Part shown: one piece after another, positions 1 through 6,659 of the stretch
How the letters are laid out: each line of letters starts with the position of its first letter
Position numbering within the stretch: the stretch's first letter is position 1
From: a virus
IMG/VR virus record: IMGVR_UViG_3300034418_006594
Location: 1-37,640 of that record
Strand: one strand, 5' to 3'
DNA: 37,640 nt
Made by a program: the position numbers and the translations under genes
The notes under the pieces: generated by a model
Seen by the model: only the letters and a program-made list of their open reading frames with translations
Told to the model about the DNA's origin: nothing
Database searches by the model: none

Positions 1-123
1 ATGGACCTCAAGACTATGACCTGCCTTTGTTATGATTATCTGAATGAAGGTTATGATAAGTATTCGGATGCAGAGTTGACTGAAGAGTGTAAAGAATACT
101 ACCCTGAATTGTTGGAGGAGTGA
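1..123 (+). CDS. Small acidic protein of unknown function, 40 aa, possibly N-terminally incomplete
   Basis: The reading frame is open from the first base of the window, begins with ATG and ends with TGA at 121-123. It encodes 40 residues with the pattern MDLKTMTCLCYDYL followed by a Glu/Tyr-rich tail that ends ELLEE. The protein is acidic and has two Cys near its start; no signal peptide or membrane segment is visible. Because the window begins on the ATG, the true start could lie upstream, and an internal Met at base 16 is another option. Codon use is like that of the genes that follow, and a hairpin-containing gap follows the stop. I do not recognise a family. Confidence 0.5.
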   Translation: MDLKTMTCLCYDYLNEGYDKYSDAELTEECKEYYPELLEE

Positions 124-134
124 TACAAACCGTT

Positions 135-155
135 CGGGAGTTCTTTATACTCCCG
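135..155 (+). terminator. Hairpin downstream of the first gene, weak terminator candidate
   Basis: CGGGAG (135-140) can pair with CTCCCG (150-155) across a nine-base loop, TTCTTTATA. The loop itself holds TTCTTTATAC, which reappears after the much clearer terminator at 1015-1037, so the two gaps look related. There is no T-run after the stem. It may be a terminator remnant, or the TATACT at 146-151 may act as a -10 element. Confidence 0.3.
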
Positions 156-185
156 TTCGGCCGCCCGTGTGCCAGTCGTGGCAGT

Positions 186-226
186 GTCCACCAATTGCCC
201 CATTGCCCCCTGATCGGTGCAATACT
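186..226 (+). promoter_or_regulatory. Cassette promoter 1: GTCCAC box plus AATACT -10
   Basis: GTCCAC lies at 186-191 and AATACT at 221-226, a start-to-start distance of 35 bases. The interval is C-rich (two ATTGCCCC units) and holds no TTGACA-like -35 box. The expected transcript would begin near 233 and reach the ATG at 254 after about 21 bases of A-rich leader without a Shine-Dalgarno sequence. The layout matches five other gaps in the first 3.3 kb. Confidence 0.6.
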
Positions 227-253
227 AAGGCATACCAAACGAAACGAAACCAA

Positions 254-430
254 ATGCGCCTTGACGTGATCTGCCCCGCTGCTCCCTGGGAGAACACTAC
301 CACCGACGCCGATCGGGCATGGGACCTCTGCTTCTCCCTGTCTGAGGAGTACGGTTACTGTGAGATCCGCCAGGACGGCATCGTGATCGGAGACTACGGC
401 AACCCCGCCACCTTCCTGGACTGGCGGTGA
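254..430 (+). CDS. Small protein of unknown function, 58 aa
   Basis: The start ATG at 254 follows the -10 element at 221-226 by the distance expected for a short leader; a longer in-frame extension to 167 would run through the promoter and is rejected. The 58-residue product begins MRLDVICPAAPWENT and ends NPATFLDWR, with a mixed hydrophobic and acidic composition. No membrane segment is apparent. It is GC-rich (many GCC, CTG and ATC codons) compared with the tail genes. The stop is 12 bases before the next GTCCAC box, so this looks like a single-gene transcription unit. I do not recognise the family. Confidence 0.6.
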   Translation: MRLDVICPAAPWENTTTDADRAWDLCFSLSEEYGYCEIRQDGIVIGDYGNPATFLDWR

Positions 431-442
431 CAGTCGGGGGAG

Positions 443-484
443 TGTCCACCATTCTCCCCATTGCCCCCCATCTGCTGCCATACT
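443..484 (+). promoter_or_regulatory. Cassette promoter 2: GTCCAC box plus CATACT -10
   Basis: GTCCAC at 443-448 is followed 36 bases later by CATACT at 479-484. The 12 bases before the box (CAGTCGGGGGAG) resemble those of cassettes 1 and 4. Downstream, CAGTTCACACGACAC leads into the ATG at 511 and resembles the leaders of the genes at 1137, 3027 and 3319. Confidence 0.6.
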
Positions 485-510
485 AACCTCAGTTCACACG
501 ACACAGACTC

Positions 511-861
511 ATGCGTAAGATCGAACGTGAAATGAACGCTGCCATTTCTGACTCCCGCAACTGGCAATCTGGCAACACTGCTGTCGCTTACAACCCTGAA
601 ACTAACGAGTCGACAGTGTTCCTCCATGGTAACAAGATCGCCGTGGTTGGTGATGACTTCGTTCAAATCTTTGACGGTGGTTATCAGTCAAAGACCACTA
701 AGTCCCGCCTGAATGCTATTCTTTCGGAGCATGGAATCAAGGGCGAATGTGTATTTCAAAAGAACTTCAATTGGTTCGTTCATAAGTTCATCGGACAGAC
801 CTCAATCACTGGTCCTGTCTATAACGAATACGACTTCACCAACGGTTTCATGTTCGCCTGA
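511..861 (+). CDS. Conserved cyanophage/cyanobacterial hypothetical protein, 116 aa
   Basis: The product starts MRKIEREMNAAISDSRNWQS and continues with NTAVAYNPETNESTVFLHGN, a pattern I recall from a small family widespread in cyanophages and some bacteria, of unknown function. It is a soluble alpha/beta-looking protein with a predicted N-terminal helix and strands around residues 24-55. The central segment NFNWFVHKFIGQ and the C-terminal YDFTNGFMFA are aromatic-rich. The ATG at 511 follows cassette promoter 2 and its conserved leader. The next small gene begins two bases after the stop, so the two are probably co-transcribed. Function is unknown. Confidence 0.7.
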   Translation: MRKIEREMNAAISDSRNWQSGNTAVAYNPETNESTVFLHGNKIAVVGDDFVQIFDGGYQSKTTKSRLNAILSEHGIKGECVFQKNFNWFVHKFIGQTSITGPVYNEYDFTNGFMFA

Positions 862-863
862 TT

Positions 864-1007
864 ATGATGAAAACTTACAAAGTTACTTTCACTGTCGTTT
901 GTGACGGTCATCCTCGCAAATGGGTTCCTGATGCTATCTGGGAAAACCTGAATTCTGGTGATGGTGAAGATGTTCTGGAGTACAACTTTGAGGAGGTTGA
1001 AGAATAG
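864..1007 (+). CDS. Small acidic protein, 47 aa
   Basis: This frame starts with a double ATG (864 and 867) two bases after the previous stop and ends with TAG at 1005-1007. The 47 residues begin MMKTYKVTFTVVCDG, continue with HPRKWVPDAIWENL, and end in an acidic tail (EEVEE). The KTYKVTFTV opening resembles a beta-strand. A strong terminator follows within eight bases, so this gene closes a two-gene unit started by the 116-residue gene. I do not recognise a named family; similar short WVPxAIxE proteins occur in cyanophages as far as I recall. Confidence 0.6.
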   Translation: MMKTYKVTFTVVCDGHPRKWVPDAIWENLNSGDGEDVLEYNFEEVEE

Positions 1008-1014
1008 GAATTAG

Positions 1015-1037
1015 GGGGCATTCGTGCCCCTTTCTTT
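1015..1037 (+). terminator. Rho-independent terminator
   Basis: GGGGCA (1015-1020) pairs perfectly with TGCCCC (1025-1030) across a TTCG tetraloop, and is followed by TTTCTTT. This is the clearest intrinsic terminator in the window. It ends the 511-1007 unit before cassette promoter 3. Confidence 0.85.
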
Positions 1038-1072
1038 ATACCCAGGTCGGCTGCCCGACCAATTGGCGCACT

Positions 1073-1114
1073 GTCCACTACATACCCACAAGCGCCCTCA
1101 CCTGCCCCTATAAT
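1073..1114 (+). promoter_or_regulatory. Cassette promoter 3: GTCCAC box plus TATAAT -10
   Basis: GTCCAC (1073-1078) lies 36 bases before a consensus TATAAT (1109-1114). The bases before the box, TTGGCGCACT, form the best left half of the proposed palindrome. The expected start near 1121 gives a leader of about 16 bases, AGTTCAAACGACACCG, leading into the ATG at 1137. Confidence 0.7.
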
Positions 1115-1136
1115 GACTTCAGTTCAAACGACACCG

Positions 1137-1724
1137 ATGCCCGTCACCGCTGCCAACCTTGCCAACATCAACCTGGCAGACATCCTGGAGGAGAACACCG
1201 AAGCACTCGCCGCTCGTGAGGCAGAGAACAATAAGTGGATCAATGCAGACGGTACTCCTAAGAAGAACCATATCTGGAAGTATGCATCCAAAACTCCTCA
1301 AGGTGATGCTGGTGAGAATGTAGTTGCCACCAGTATTCTTGTGATTCTGAATGCAGTCTACGGTGATGATGTTCAGTGCCGTGTGATTAACAAAGGTAAG
1401 GGTGAGTATGACATTCTCATCACTCTTCCTACTGGCAAAGAGTATAAGATTGAGGTGAAGACTGCCACTGAAGATGTCAATGGTTCTCATCAATTCAATG
1501 GTCTTCGTAAGGACGTTGACTATGACTTTGCCTTCTTGTTTGGTGTTGGACCCGAAGAGTTTTTCTTTGACATTGCCTCCCACAAGTATCTTTGTGAGAC
1601 GATGACTACCAACATGAGCAAAGAAGTCGTGGGTTCTTATAAGCACACCATTTCCCAAAAGAACCTGAAGCGTTTCAATACTGAGAACCTTTATAACATG
1701 CTGGAGACCTGCGGCATCGTGTGA
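1137..1724 (+). CDS. PD-(D/E)XK nuclease-like protein, 195 aa
   Basis: I place the start at 1137. The upstream in-frame ATG at 1113 overlaps the -10 box, whereas 1137 ends the leader CAGTTCAAACGACACCGATG that is shared with the gene at 3319. The key feature is residues 90-110: an Asp in EYDILI (D92), a hairpin, then KIEVKTAT with E106 and K108. This D-x(n)-E-x-K arrangement is the catalytic signature of the PD-(D/E)XK restriction-endonuclease fold. An upstream helix with GDAGENVVATSI (E60) suits the accessory acidic residue of that fold. It could be a phage nuclease acting on host or competitor DNA, a structure-specific nuclease, or a restriction-like enzyme. No methyltransferase neighbour is visible. 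The fold call is an inference from the motif. Confidence 0.65.
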   Translation: MPVTAANLANINLADILEENTEALAAREAENNKWINADGTPKKNHIWKYASKTPQGDAGENVVATSILVILNAVYGDDVQCRVINKGKGEYDILITLPTGKEYKIEVKTATEDVNGSHQFNGLRKDVDYDFAFLFGVGPEEFFFDIASHKYLCETMTTNMSKEVVGSYKHTISQKNLKRFNTENLYNMLETCGIV

Positions 1725-1727
1725 CAG

Positions 1728-1777
1728 TTGGGGAACCGTCCACCAAACCGACACAGGACCCCCAGACCCCCTATACT
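1728..1777 (+). promoter_or_regulatory. Cassette promoter 4: palindromic GTCCAC site plus TATACT -10
   Basis: The 19 bases 1728-1746 (TTGGGGAACCGTCCACCAA) form an imperfect palindrome with seven of nine arm pairs. GTCCAC is at 1738-1743 and TATACT at 1772-1777, a spacing of 34. The ATG at 1784 begins seven bases after the -10 element, which is where transcription would be expected to begin. Confidence 0.6.
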
Positions 1778-1783
1778 AAGGGC

Positions 1784-2017
1784 ATGAACAACGACGGACC
1801 CATGCCCAAGATGATGGACATCACGATCAGTGAGGAGACCTACGCCATCATTCAGAAACTGGCAGCGGATCGTATGGATGACCTGCTGAGCATCTATGAT
1901 GAGTGTGATCAGGTGCCCTACCATGCCCAACGCATCCTAGAAGCGGTCACCATGTTCAGCAGTTGGGATCGGGGTGCAATCGAACAACTGGCACAGTTCC
2001 AACGCCTGATGCCCTGA
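1784..2017 (+). CDS. Small protein of unknown function, 77 aa
   Basis: The start at 1784 sits directly at the expected transcription start of cassette promoter 4, so the message could be leaderless. In-frame Met codons at 1802 and 1811 are alternatives that would restore a short leader. The product, from MMDITISEETY onward, looks helical (AIIQKLAADRMDDLL, then a second helix with HAQRILEAV), and the TISEETYAIIQKL part resembles the recognition-strand and helix opening of ribbon-helix-helix or CopG-like proteins. That resemblance is weak. Its frame is GC-rich. The next gene's -10 element lies eight bases after the stop. Confidence 0.6.
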   Translation: MNNDGPMPKMMDITISEETYAIIQKLAADRMDDLLSIYDECDQVPYHAQRILEAVTMFSSWDRGAIEQLAQFQRLMP

Positions 2018-2024
2018 TCCCCCC

Positions 2025-2030
2025 TATACT
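2025..2030 (+). promoter_or_regulatory. TATACT -10 element just upstream of the KxDG gene
   Basis: CCCCTATACTAAGCACATG at 2021-2039 closely matches the layout at 1768-1786. No GTCCAC box is present 34-36 bases upstream; that position is inside the preceding coding region. The ATG at 2037 lies six bases after the hexamer, again at the expected +1. Confidence 0.45.
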
Positions 2031-2036
2031 AAGCAC

Positions 2037-2954
2037 ATGCAAAACAAACACATCGAACACCCCGAAGACACCATCCTGACGGGTGACCTGAATGCCCTGG
2101 ACTGGTTTGAGGCAGCAGGTGCCCTGTCAGTGAAGATCGACGGTGCTCCCGCTATTGTTTGGGGTCGCAATCCTGCCACGGGTAACTTCTTCGTGGGCAC
2201 CAAAAGTGTCTTCAACAAAGTTAAGATTAAGATCAACGAATCTCATGCGGAAATCGATCAGAACCACACAGGCGAAGTTGCAAAAATTCTGCACGCTTGT
2301 TTTGATTGGTTACCTCATACAGACGCCATTTTTCAAGGCGACTTTATTGGGTTTGGCGGAGAGTCTGAATACACTCCCAACACTATCACTTACAGTTTCG
2401 GAGAAGTAATCGACCAGGAAATCATCATTGCTCCGCATACCTATTATGAGGCAAATGGTGATCTCCGTGATAGTTGGGCAATCCCTATGTTGTTCACCAT
2501 TACTGACACTGCCTATTGTAAGTTTGTGAAACCCAAGGCACGGATCTTCTCTGGCAATTATGACATCTCTCTCCGTTCCTTTAGTGATCTCTCTGAGGTG
2601 ATTCAGTTTGCTAAAGTAATGGCACAGAATGTGACCTTTGTCGATGAGAAGAAAGCAAAGCAGATTAAGCAGGAACTGAATAAGTGTATCCGCGAAGGTG
2701 TGGAGATTGATGATAATGCATTTGACTGTGATTACACTCTGATTGCTTACTGGAAACTGATCAAATCTATCAAAGATGATGCACTCTACCTTTGCCGTAA
2801 TGATGGTCCTGCTGCTTACATCGGATACGATCAGATTGATGCCGAAGGTTATGTCTACTCCAATGAGTTCGGTACAATGAAACTGGTCAATCGTGAGCGT
2901 TTCAGTCATGCTAACTTCAACAACGCTAAATTTAACAAAGAGGTGTGCCAGTGA
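2037..2954 (+). CDS. KxDG nucleotidyltransferase / ligase-like phage protein, 305 aa
   Basis: Residues 33-36 are KIDG in the context SVKIDGAPAIVWGRN, the motif I of covalent nucleotidyltransferases (ATP-dependent DNA/RNA ligases and capping enzymes), where the Lys carries the nucleotide. Further motifs follow in the right order: IFQGDFIGF (residues 98-106) resembles motif III, DAEGYVYSN (268-276) resembles motif IV (EGxVxx), and MKLVNRERF (281-289) supplies a motif V-like Lys at 282. A related phage family has, I believe, been called DUF6267; that label is unverified. It may seal or modify nucleic acid ends during infection. No OB-fold domain is evident, so the exact substrate is unclear. Base composition falls from GC-rich in the first 150 bases to AT-richer later. 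The upstream -10 element implies almost no leader. Confidence 0.7.
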   Translation: MQNKHIEHPEDTILTGDLNALDWFEAAGALSVKIDGAPAIVWGRNPATGNFFVGTKSVFNKVKIKINESHAEIDQNHTGEVAKILHACFDWLPHTDAIFQGDFIGFGGESEYTPNTITYSFGEVIDQEIIIAPHTYYEANGDLRDSWAIPMLFTITDTAYCKFVKPKARIFSGNYDISLRSFSDLSEVIQFAKVMAQNVTFVDEKKAKQIKQELNKCIREGVEIDDNAFDCDYTLIAYWKLIKSIKDDALYLCRNDGPAAYIGYDQIDAEGYVYSNEFGTMKLVNRERFSHANFNNAKFNKEVCQ

Positions 2955-2961
2955 GCGCACT

Positions 2962-3003
2962 GTCCACCCATGCCCCTTGGGCGGCGGATCTGCCCCCTAT
3001 AAT
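2962..3003 (+). promoter_or_regulatory. Cassette promoter 5: GTCCAC box plus TATAAT -10
   Basis: GTCCAC (2962-2967), eight bases after the preceding stop, is 36 bases upstream of TATAAT (2998-3003). The left flank GAGCGCACT resembles GGCGCACT of cassette 3. The leader TTCAGTTCAGACGACCCCCG leads into the ATG at 3027. Confidence 0.65.
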
Positions 3004-3026
3004 GGTTTCAGTTCAGACGACCCCCG

Positions 3027-3251
3027 ATGACCTTCGCCGTTCAACCCGCCTACTGGACCAAGTTCGATCAGCATGGGTGCTGGTGGGCAACCTCCCTCAA
3101 CCACGCCCAGCGGATCGCTGAATTCCATGGGATGGGTGAGGAGTGCATGATCTGGCGCGTCCCCGCTAGCGGTCGTGCTTACAAGTGGATGCGAGCAGGT
3201 GGCAAGGTGGATCAGGTCGATCAGATTGCCGACCTGGTGTACGGTGCCTGA
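3027..3251 (+). CDS. Small protein of unknown function, 74 aa
   Basis: The start at 3027 follows the conserved leader of cassette promoter 5. The product begins MTFAVQPAYWTKFDQHG and has an aromatic N-terminal half with CWWATSLNHAQRIAEFHG, then EECMIWRVPASGRAYKWM. This looks like a small alpha/beta domain; no catalytic motif is recognisable. It is GC-rich. The stop is four bases before the next GTCCAC box, so the gene is most likely a single-gene unit. No family recognised. Confidence 0.6.
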   Translation: MTFAVQPAYWTKFDQHGCWWATSLNHAQRIAEFHGMGEECMIWRVPASGRAYKWMRAGGKVDQVDQIADLVYGA

Positions 3252-3254
3252 ACC

Positions 3255-3296
3255 GTCCACTATCCGCCCCGAAGGGCACCCCTAACCCCTTATACT
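3255..3296 (+). promoter_or_regulatory. Cassette promoter 6: GTCCAC box plus TATACT -10
   Basis: GTCCAC (3255-3260) is 36 bases upstream of TATACT (3291-3296). The leader CAGTTCAAACGACACCGATG at 3302-3321 is identical to that of the nuclease-like gene at 1120-1139. Confidence 0.7.
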
Positions 3297-3318
3297 GATC
3301 TCAGTTCAAACGACACCG

Positions 3319-3582
3319 ATGAGCACCGCTACCTACAACGGTTGGGCAAACTACGAAACCTGGAACGCCGCCCTCTGGATCGGAAACGATGAGTTTCTGT
3401 ACAACACCGCTAAGGCATGTGTTGAGTTCTGCGACTCTTGGGATACCCCTTGGGAGAAATTCCAACGTTGCATGTTGAATGGCATGATCGGTCGTTTCCC
3501 CGCTGGCACTGGTGACGGTGTGGCATGGGACAACGCCGCCATCGACGCCCAGGAGATGAATGAGATGATGGCAGAACTCTGA
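3319..3582 (+). CDS. DUF7249-like small protein, 87 aa
   Basis: The N-terminal motif YNGWANYETWNAALWIGND (residues 6-24) is characteristic of a short family found in cyanobacteria and phages that I believe is named DUF7249; its role is unknown. The rest, with EFCDSWDTPWEKF and a C-terminal acidic helix (DAQEMNEMMAEL), fits the family's usual length. The start codon follows a leader identical to that of the gene at 1137. No SD-like sequence is present, so initiation may rely on the leader itself. The next gene follows after a 44-base gap with no obvious promoter, so the two may be co-transcribed. Confidence 0.75.
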   Translation: MSTATYNGWANYETWNAALWIGNDEFLYNTAKACVEFCDSWDTPWEKFQRCMLNGMIGRFPAGTGDGVAWDNAAIDAQEMNEMMAEL

Positions 3583-3626
3583 TCCTCCCCCCCCTTTCCT
3601 TTCAAACCACAAACCAACATCCTACC

Positions 3627-3794
3627 ATGACCCGCGACCTCGCTACCGCTCTTCTGAACCGTGCCGCCGATGGCACCCAACTCCTGGCAATCCTGGACAC
3701 CATCGCCACCGACATGGAAACCCAGGGCATTGAGGATTGTGCCGCTCATTATGCTGCCATCTCTGCCCCCACTTCGGAACCGATCGCCTTCTGA
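3627..3794 (+). CDS. Small conserved cyanophage protein, 55 aa
   Basis: ATG at 3627 opens a 55-codon frame ending TGA at 3792-3794. The product starts MTRDLATALLNRAADGTQLL and continues AILDTIATDMETQGIED, which is two predicted helices and then a Ser/Pro-rich tail. Short proteins with this MTRDLAxxLL...LLAILDTI pattern are familiar from cyanophage and cyanobacterial genomes; function unknown. It lies two bases upstream of the HicA-like gene. I considered that it might be the cognate antitoxin, but it bears no likeness to HicB. Composition is strongly GC-rich. Confidence 0.6.
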   Translation: MTRDLATALLNRAADGTQLLAILDTIATDMETQGIEDCAAHYAAISAPTSEPIAF

Positions 3795-3796
3795 TC

Positions 3797-4024
3797 ATGG
3801 CATCCCCGATTAAAGTCCGCGACGCCCGCCGCTTGATTCACAAGGCAGGCGGCGTCATTCGGTCGGGTGGCAGTCACGACAAGGTGACCCACCCTGACCT
3901 TTCCCAAACCTTCCACCTTCCCTCCCATGGCAGCAAAGGACGCTCAACCCTCTCCCCTGGCATGTCGTCAGAGTTTCGTAAATTCCACGCTCTCATGCTG
4001 ACGGCAAAGGCATCCGCTGCCTGA
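3797..4024 (+). CDS. HicA-like toxin family protein, 75 aa
   Basis: The start at 3797 is preferred over an upstream extension because it lies two bases after the previous stop. The protein shows the HicA (YcfA) pattern. An N-terminal helix KVRDARRLIHKAGGV is followed by a strand, SGGSHDKVTHP with the conserved Gly-Ser-His (H27), and then HLPSHGS before a final helix. HicA proteins are small double-stranded-RNA-binding-fold mRNA interferases, with the His in GSH as the catalytic residue. The length of 75 residues suits the family. No HicB-like antitoxin (RNase H-like plus HTH/RHH) is adjacent, so this is either an orphan or a repurposed RNA-binding protein. Confidence 0.65.
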   Translation: MASPIKVRDARRLIHKAGGVIRSGGSHDKVTHPDLSQTFHLPSHGSKGRSTLSPGMSSEFRKFHALMLTAKASAA

Positions 4025-4031
4025 TCCGTGC

Positions 4032-4037
4032 TACAAT
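4032..4037 (+). promoter_or_regulatory. Possible -10 element TACAAT
   Basis: TACAAT lies eight bases after the HicA-like stop. The leader AAGCAACCGACACCGACCC to the ATG at 4061 resembles the ACGACACCG leaders further upstream. There is no GTCCAC box. This is a weaker promoter candidate than the six cassettes. Confidence 0.35.
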
Positions 4038-4060
4038 TCCAAAGCAACCGACACCGACCC

Positions 4061-4237
4061 ATGACCAAGCGCAACCCCACCTGCTTCCGCCTTGCCTCCG
4101 ACATCAGCACCCGCCAGACAGGATGGGTCAGCAGCAACACTCTACAGGGCACAGCACACAGCGCCGCGCTCATTGCTGGGGTGTTTGCTGAGACCTTCCA
4201 TGATGAGGCAGTCGCTGCCATCCCCTGCTTTGAGTGA
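4061..4237 (+). CDS. Small protein of unknown function, 58 aa
   Basis: The start at 4061 follows a CCGACACCGACCC leader like those of other genes in this region; an in-frame ATG at 4028 would overlap the putative -10 element. The product begins MTKRNPTCFRLASD and ends AVAAIPCFE, with a helix-forming Ala-rich middle (TAHSAALIAGVFAETF). It is too short and too polar for a confident membrane call. Strong GC bias matches its neighbours. It is the last gene of the GC-rich cluster, and the composition changes sharply after it. No family recognised. Confidence 0.5.
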   Translation: MTKRNPTCFRLASDISTRQTGWVSSNTLQGTAHSAALIAGVFAETFHDEAVAAIPCFE

Positions 4238-4269
4238 CCCTCATGCGTTCGTAGATCAGCAGTTGTGCG

Positions 4270-4289
4270 CCGTCCCCCTTCTGGGGCGG
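4270..4289 (+). terminator. Hairpin at the end of the GC-rich gene cluster
   Basis: CCG (4270-4272) and CCCC (4274-4277) pair with GGGG (4283-4286) and CGG (4287-4289), with one bulged T and a five-base loop. No T-run follows, so termination is uncertain. The 130-base gap 4238-4367 holds this hairpin and TATA-rich motifs and no gene that I can support. Confidence 0.4.
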
Positions 4290-4354
4290 TCGCCGCCGTG
4301 TATATAAAATCCATGGGTCCCTCCAAGCTATAAAGTGTTACACTCGACCTTTCT

Positions 4355-5699: not shown

Positions 5700-6368
5700 A
5701 TGAGTTGTTTAATCACCAATCTTCCATCAATTGAGGTATGGGTTCGTAAAGAATACCTTACAGACCATCAAAGTGGACATGGTGAATTTGTAAAGGGCGT
5801 TTGGGTTTCGGCAAAGTCGATTCCTGGACGCGCTTTTTATTTTGAAACTTATTTGCCAGAATATGCGGCAATGTACGATAAATTGCCCATCAGTGCCTTT
5901 CTCTCGTCACCAGAGACACCAGACCCTGATATGGACCTACCTAACCTACAGTTTTGGAACTGTATGGACTATGGTGTAGTCAGTATTGATAAAAAGTTCA
6001 TTGGTAGTATGGACTTTGAGTGTTATACACGGGACTTTGGTATTCAAAAAGGAACTTATGTCTGCACAATTGACAATTATCACCGCGACCCAGACATGGT
6101 TGACTGGGCAACAAGTGAAAATCCTGCCGAACACAAGTCTCATAACCTTATTGAACTGAAAAATGGGCAATATGCACTCTATCCAAATAATAGATTACGT
6201 ATTTTTGACAATAGTTTGACGCCTGCGGAACCAAAGATGCCAGATTTTAAGGTTTCGACTCAATATTATCAGGTAGAATGTGGTTATGATCGTCTTGGTA
6301 TGGGCGATGAAGATGAATATCACTGGAAAACTGCCCAGGAAAGAAAAATAAATACTGATAAGGGATAG
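5700..6368 (+). CDS. Conserved cyanophage hypothetical protein, 222 aa
   Basis: The product starts MSCLITNLPSIEVWVRKEYL and has an aromatic-rich soluble sequence. Blocks such as FYFETYLPEYAAMYDKLPIS (residues 47-66), LQFWNCMDYGVVSIDKKFIG (84-103), and YVCTIDNYHRDPD are probably mostly beta. No transmembrane segment, catalytic motif or repeat is recognisable. I recall proteins of this kind upstream of gp25/gp6 in T4-like cyanophages without assigned function. It could be a virion or assembly factor given its place beside the baseplate genes. A late-like promoter precedes it. Confidence 0.65.
   Translation: MSCLITNLPSIEVWVRKEYLTDHQSGHGEFVKGVWVSAKSIPGRAFYFETYLPEYAAMYDKLPISAFLSSPETPDPDMDLPNLQFWNCMDYGVVSIDKKFIGSMDFECYTRDFGIQKGTYVCTIDNYHRDPDMVDWATSENPAEHKSHNLIELKNGQYALYPNNRLRIFDNSLTPAEPKMPDFKVSTQYYQVECGYDRLGMGDEDEYHWKTAQERKINTDKG
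6347..6354 (+). promoter_or_regulatory. Late-promoter-like AATAAATA
   Basis: AATAAATA lies inside the last codons of the 222-residue gene, 60 bases before the ATG at 6414. A transcript from here would carry the hairpin at 6386-6405 in its leader. Confidence 0.4.
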
Positions 6369-6413: not shown

Positions 6414-6659
6414 ATGGGAAATTTACCTGTAGATAGAAACACAGAGTACATGAGAGAGATGTGGGGAACCACAAAACTCATTTCAGATTATGGATCAATG
6501 CAAGAAAAACCAAAAAGAGTGATCACAGAGGTAATGCACGACCTTGCACCACGCCATGATCTTAAAAAACAGACGGAATTGCACGAAAAAATTCGCAATG
6601 ACGATGATTATGATGATTGGGAGTATGGAACCGAACCTTCTTATGGAACTGAGGTATAA
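6414..6659 (+). CDS. Small charged protein upstream of gp25, 81 aa
   Basis: The start is well supported by AGGAG six bases upstream. The product begins MGNLPVDRNTEYMREMWGTT and ends in an acidic segment with NDDDYDDWEYGTEPS. It is hydrophilic and probably disordered at the C-terminus, with no recognisable motif. Its position between the 222-residue protein and the baseplate gene gp25, and its late-type promoters, suggest expression with the structural genes. A DNA-mimic or chaperone-like role would be a guess from charge. Its last codons overlap the gp25 late promoter. Confidence 0.6.
   Translation: MGNLPVDRNTEYMREMWGTTKLISDYGSMQEKPKRVITEVMHDLAPRHDLKKQTELHEKIRNDDDYDDWEYGTEPSYGTEV

Follow-up and report, generated by a model that had tools for sequence, protein, structure and literature searches.

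The middle promoters of bacteriophage T4 carry a MotA box centred at -30, about 12 nucleotides (nt) from the -10 box, and are used together with AsiA. Promoters dependent on NtcA in cyanobacteria carry the site GTA-N8-TAC, usually near -41.5, and in the promoter-early stem-loop (PeSL) cassettes of T4-like phages a standard early promoter follows a hairpin. Doron et al. 2016 (ISME J 10:1437) reportedly found a novel regulatory element of early genes in the phages Syn9 and P-TIM40, conserved among T4-like cyanophages. The PeSL cassettes were described by Arbiol 2010 and Comeau 2014, as cited in PMC4503421. Cyanomyoviruses lack alt, modA, modB, motA and asiA, and the takeover of host transcription by T4-like cyanophages has been described as unclear (PMC2984593). 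Here we analysed a stretch of 37,640 nt (positions 1 to 37,640 of IMG/VR virus record IMGVR_UViG_3300034418_006594; hereafter the window), in which six units of the form GTCCAC-(28-30 nt)-[T/C/A]ATAMT lie on the plus strand between positions 186 and 3296. An earlier reading made from the letters alone (the sequence-only reading) had taken these units for a repeated promoter cassette that precedes small accessory genes in phages without the MotA system, and it was right on the kind of element and in agreement with the published gene content (PMC2984593). We find that GTCCAC belongs to a longer dyad, and that each unit probably serves a T4-like cyanophage as an early promoter that depends on an activator.

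The pattern GTCCAC-N26..32-HATRMT matched six times in the window, whereas 100 dinucleotide shuffles gave a mean of 0.47 and at most 2 matches. GTCCAC alone was not enriched in the window (12 occurrences against 12.2 expected), so that the signal lies in the pairing and the position. All six pairs named by the sequence-only reading were recovered, and its positions and distances held except at site 2, where the box starts at 444 instead of 443; the distances from box start to -10 start at sites 1 to 6 are thus 35, 35, 36, 34, 36 and 36. When the viral collection was scanned with GTCCAC-TATAMT-TCAGTTC, permitting spacings of 26 to 32, the cassette was found in at least 120 viral stretches, and among the matches listed the spacing was 28-30 in 127 of 131 sites, with exactly four bases before TCAGTTC. 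In the alignment of 97 unique sites from the same listed matches, the columns upstream of the box are also conserved and read G[A/C]CAGT, six free bases and ACTGTC, while the corresponding position in complete cyanophage genomes reads TGTG[A/C]CA[G/C]TT-N4-AA[C/G]TG[G/T]CACA, with near-perfect palindromes in P-SSM2, P-TIM40 and S-CRM01. Judged from these alignments, GTCCAC is the promoter-proximal (right) arm of a dyad and not a stand-alone hexamer. The dyad has the general form TGTG[A/C]CAGTT-N4-AACTG[G/T]CACA and a length of about 24 base pairs (bp), and TATAAT begins 34-36 nt after the G of its promoter-proximal arm. With the -10 box taken as -12 to -7, it spans about -65 to -42 with its centre at about -54. 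The upstream factor site, which had been placed at about -48, holds in kind, but its unit is the dyad instead of the hexamer. Three features had escaped that reading: the dyad's conserved left arm, a further window site (the seventh) whose box has the common form GGCACA, and the TCAGTTC start region that four of the seven share.

Among 289 sites with a good -10 box, the proximal arm reads GGCACA in 88, GTCACA in 48 and GTCCAC in 28. The GTCCAC arm is polarised, pointing toward the -10 box in 85 cases versus 17 away from it out of 141, whereas full palindromes are oriented either way (17 versus 18); the CAC extension therefore marks direction. Three dyads with a -10-like box on both sides may each be the common operator of two divergent promoters (P-SSM2 66596-/66609+ and 129353-/129366+; P-TIM40 52471-/52484+). 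A subfamily of the viral-contig sites (L010-L129), as well as the four window sites mentioned above, has the start region TCAGTTCAAAC[A/G]AAC before the ATG, with no Shine-Dalgarno sequence. We considered TCAGTTC as a general part of the element and rejected it, because among 63 unselected sites with a GTCCAC dyad and a -10 box CAGTTC stands at the start just once; it is a mark of the subfamily that our initial search pattern had selected.

A matrix was refined on the window together with the genomes of 14 T4-like cyanophages in culture, and the same sequences reversed served as the control. The matrix found 443 sites versus 25 in the reversed control, a count that is partly circular since the matrix was refined on these same genomes. 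Enrichment of the motif pair in related genomes, the test that had been set beforehand, was passed by a wide margin. The element occurs in every one of the 14 cultured genomes, with 21 sites in Syn9 and 23 in P-TIM40 (reversed controls 1 and 2), while T4 and the T7-like cyanophage Syn5 have one matrix site each, which is background. The window sites were also recovered by a matrix trained on cassette-bearing viral contigs, with scores of 38-67 for the best five. Because of the circularity we relied on two independent checks. First, we searched viral contigs for dyads with no -10 box in the pattern. At 34-37 nt, TATANT followed 24 of 109 dyads of the GGCACA form and 48 of 111 of the GTCCAC form, an enrichment of about 50-110 fold per position over other offsets, where the background is about 0.1 per offset. 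Second, the cyanophages contain 198 copies of the half-site A[CG]TGGCACA, with a TATAMT peak at 35/36, and T4 and Syn5 together only one. In the sets tested the element is restricted to cyanophages: 335 of the 350 contigs of three viral sets match cyanomyophage proteins, and the element is common to phages of Prochlorococcus and of marine and freshwater Synechococcus. A host origin of the full cassette was tried and rejected: across the genomes of 84,980 species it matched three times, never in a cyanobacterium and never together with the dyad. In S-T4 (NC_048049) two identical sites at 4261 and 175830 lie about 171.6 kilobases apart, which may reflect a long terminal repeat or an assembly artefact.

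The sites precede genes. An ATG of an open reading frame (ORF) of at least 30 codons lies within 60 nt of 87% of well-scoring sites versus 24% of random positions, and its distance from the -10 box peaks at 20-29 nt. In most genomes the sites cluster upstream of g25. In the window, gene 25 starts at about 6703 and gene 6 at about 7100, and none of these promoter cassettes was found in the structural block after gene 25. T4-like late promoters (TATAAATA) occur in the window at 6655, 20668 and 29536, directly 5' of gene 25, a gp8-like gene and ORF 29571. Given the position upstream of g25 and the presence of TATAAATA on late genes, we call the promoters putatively early. The gene at 2037-2954 is the homologue of Syn9 gp183 (DUF6267, PF19782, phrog_455) and is kept in all cyanomyoviruses compared; it retains the element in the window and in Syn9 and, by its start sequence, in P-SSM2, Bellamy and P-TIM40 as well.

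The interval between operator and -10 box was said to contain no shared -35 hexamer, and this is borne out for the 97 unique GTCCAC-type sites, whose best match to TTGACA scores 2.61 (shuffled gaps: 2.58). Activator-dependent promoters are laid out in this way, with the -10 box at a strict distance (here 34-36 nt) and no -35. We propose that a symmetric, probably dimeric DNA-binding protein would occupy the dyad, centred some 54 bp before the start, and would recruit or position the host sigma-70-type RNA polymerase on a TATAMT box with no or a weak -35. Transcription is predicted to begin 6-7 nt past the -10 box, just before the ATG of the small gene or, in two cases, on it. GTCCAC would be the form taken by the promoter-proximal arm in some lineages, and would set promoter direction as well. 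In many relatives, where the gap forms a hairpin, a single cassette would terminate the upstream transcript and begin the next, and genes would be swapped at the cassettes.

The last two steps draw on the gaps and flanks. A third of the GTCCAC-type gaps (33%) fold below -12 kcal/mol versus 1.2% of shuffled ones, and T often follows the hairpin; terminator and promoter thus appear fused in the hairpin-bearing cassettes. In the window itself only about one site has a stable gap hairpin. One of the two flanks is unrelated in 17 of 193 pairs of near-identical cassettes, so that the cassettes are exchange points for genes. In viral contigs L051 (about 2504-2934) and L123 (about 498-1257, both in oriented positions), matching cassettes enclose a different gene, which clearly shows the replacement of a gene between cassettes. 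Window site 2 and L066 likewise share a near-identical cassette and the downstream flank, with unrelated upstream flanks.

Several observations weigh against this proposal. A TTGACA-like hexamer lies 16-18 nt from the -10 box in 17% of all family sites (1.9% in shuffled sequences), so that dependence on the factor is probably graded. About 55-75% of dyads have no TATANT at the expected spot, and some dyads are degenerate or have another role. Sites are also found outside the early region. Finally, the search for a binder among phage proteins gave no identification: of the proteins shared with Syn9 across these phages and absent from T4, none stood out as clearly a dimeric DNA-binding protein. 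We considered the annotated "transcriptional regulator" phrog_385 (Syn9 175642-175872 and homologues), which is found in all 14 cyanophages and in G002 and is absent from T4 and Syn5, as a universal phage regulator. It is a weak candidate, with a zinc-ribbon-like look but no cysteines and no Pfam match.

The factor may be a host regulator, a virion-injected protein or a very early phage protein. That the phages exploit a host transcription regulator is a possibility we take seriously, though we do not favour it. Transcription of early genes has to precede the making of phage proteins, the element is shared by phages of Prochlorococcus and of marine and freshwater Synechococcus, and the Syn9-shared proteins offer no obvious dimeric binder. 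However, an injected virion protein would serve equally well, and the full cassette had no cyanobacterial match in the species genomes, where the bare dyad was not scanned. More speculatively, a phage- or virion-borne dimeric activator common to T4-like cyanophages might replace Alt, MotA and AsiA, read the dyad and hand the host polymerase to the early genes; a shift of the proximal arm to GTCCAC in some lineages might have fixed direction there, with terminator, operator and promoter packed into one mobile cassette.

It is rather unlikely that the sites are ordinary host-type sigma-70 promoters used by polymerase alone, with the dyad being a repressor site or a replication, packaging or recombination site that does not activate. 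The -10 boxes are host-like, the TTGACA-like -35 in 17% of sites fits such promoters, cyanomyoviruses, which lack Alt, ModA, MotA and AsiA, were believed to use the unmodified host polymerase (PMC2984593), and the cassettes are exchange junctions. Yet the GTCCAC-type sites keep the strict spacing with no -35 at all, such spacing would be superfluous for a repressor site or packaging site located upstream of -42, and the sites precede start codons. It is very improbable that the dyad acts as a hairpin in RNA, for instance one that ends the upstream transcript or signals its processing, rather than as a DNA operator. The inverted repeat does follow stop codons, and a strong hairpin occurs in a third of the GTCCAC-type gaps. 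However, these true terminator hairpins are a separate feature, located in the gap, whereas in the dyad itself GTCCAC disrupts pairing, no T-run follows 3', and the distance to the -10 box is fixed. Moreover, we found no covariation at the two variable arm pairs (observed 0.46 versus expected 0.45 at -14/+1, and 0.35 versus 0.44 at -11/-2), which favours double-stranded DNA read by a symmetric protein. Rfam gave no match in the window. A chance pairing of the hexamer with AT-rich -10 look-alikes, suggested by the chance frequency of GTCCAC itself, is practically refuted by the counts in the window and against the reversed control, and also by the dyads found independently of the -10 box.

The activator-dependent promoter proposed here resembles several of the known systems. 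It is probably the early element of Doron et al. 2016, an identification made from the phage group and from Syn9 and P-TIM40, which both carry the present element in the block of small genes upstream of g25. Our literature search found no paper printing the motif, Doron et al. 2016 itself not being among the texts compared. The GTCCAC variant, the polarity of the dyad, the TCAGTTCAAAC start region and the in-promoter terminator were worked out here, and may already be contained in that work. Like a T4 middle promoter, the element combines an activator box with a -10 box and no -35; it differs in having a 24-bp dyad of another sequence, centred at about -54 and with its arm starting 34-36 nt before the -10 box, in phages that lack motA and asiA (PMC2984593). 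With PeSLs it shares a terminator hairpin joined to an early promoter and a junction where genes are exchanged, but here operator and -10 box enclose the hairpin, so that it is internal to the promoter and not upstream of a complete sigma-70 early promoter. The palindromic activator site upstream of the -10 box and the weak -35 recall the NtcA promoters, from which the element differs in sequence, arm length and position. A standard sigma-70 promoter, with a TTGACA-like -35 at 16-18 nt, is not seen in the GTCCAC-type gaps but only in the minority of family sites noted above.

T4-like cyanophages are among the commonest marine viruses, and they take over their hosts without the Alt, MotA and AsiA of T4. 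A precise 24-bp operator such as TGTGCCAGTTGAGGAACTGGCACA, with its fixed spacing, is a concrete bait for finding the factor. With the element, early genes might also be predicted from the contigs of uncultured phages, and the acquisition of small accessory genes by swapping would be explained, each arriving as a complete transcription unit.

Table 1. Operators and -10 boxes of the seven putative promoters in the window
Feature	Position	Strand	Remarks
Site 1 dyad operator TGTGCCAGTCGTGGCAGTGTCCAC	168..191	+	box GTCCAC 186-191
Site 1 -10 AATACT	221..226	+	predicted to drive small ORF 254-430 (58 amino acids, aa)
Site 2 dyad operator GGTGACAGTCGGGGGAGTGTCCAC	426..449	+	box 444-449
Site 2 -10 CATACT, then TCAGTTC	479..484	+	predicted to drive ORF 511-861 (Kyano_Gp96, PF23790)
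Site 3 dyad operator CCGACCAATTGGCGCACTGTCCAC	1055..1078	+	box 1073-1078
Site 3 -10 TATAAT	1109..1114	+	predicted to drive ORF 1137-1724 (195 aa)
Site 4 dyad operator TGTGACAGTTGGGGAACCGTCCAC	1720..1743	+	box 1738-1743; overlaps stop of preceding gene
Site 4 -10 TATACT	1772..1777	+	ORF 1784-2017; predicted +1 at or beside ATG 1784 (leaderless)
Site 7 operator GGGTGCAATCGAACAACTGGCACA	1972..1995	+	common box GGCACA 1990-1995
Site 7 -10 TATACT	2025..2030	+	DUF6267 gene 2037-2954; predicted +1 at or beside ATG 2037 (leaderless)
Site 5 dyad operator TGTGCCAGTGAGCGCACTGTCCAC	2944..2967	+	box 2962-2967; overlaps stop of DUF6267 gene
Site 5 -10 TATAAT, start region TTCAGTTC	2998..3003	+	predicted to drive ORF 3027-3251 (74 aa)
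Site 6 dyad operator GTGTACGGTGCCTGAACCGTCCAC	3237..3260	+	box 3255-3260
Site 6 -10 TATACT, start region CTCAGTTC	3291..3296	+	predicted to drive ORF 3319-3582 (DUF7249, PF23907)

The sites of the window are listed in Table 1. At site 3 the predicted +1 is A1121, within TTCAGTTCAAACGACACCG, and a terminator-like hairpin lies upstream of the operator at 1013-1032. At sites 4 and 7 the ATG lies where transcription should begin, hence leaderless messages are predicted.

A few annotations in related records deserve mention. The homologue of window ORF 3319-3582 in S-CAM9 (KU686204, 48009-48254) lies opposite annotated minus-strand genes, and the annotated start of Syn9 gp61 (44804) lies upstream of its own -10 box; both are likely annotation errors. 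Homologues of window ORF 5700-6368 are annotated as PurM, ferredoxin or transcriptional regulator in various phage records, PHROGs assigning the ORF to ferredoxin and Pfam giving no match. The GC content of the window is 51% in the early-gene block (1-4330) versus 35% in the structural block (4331-37640), a drop which suggests that the accessory block has had a different recent history.

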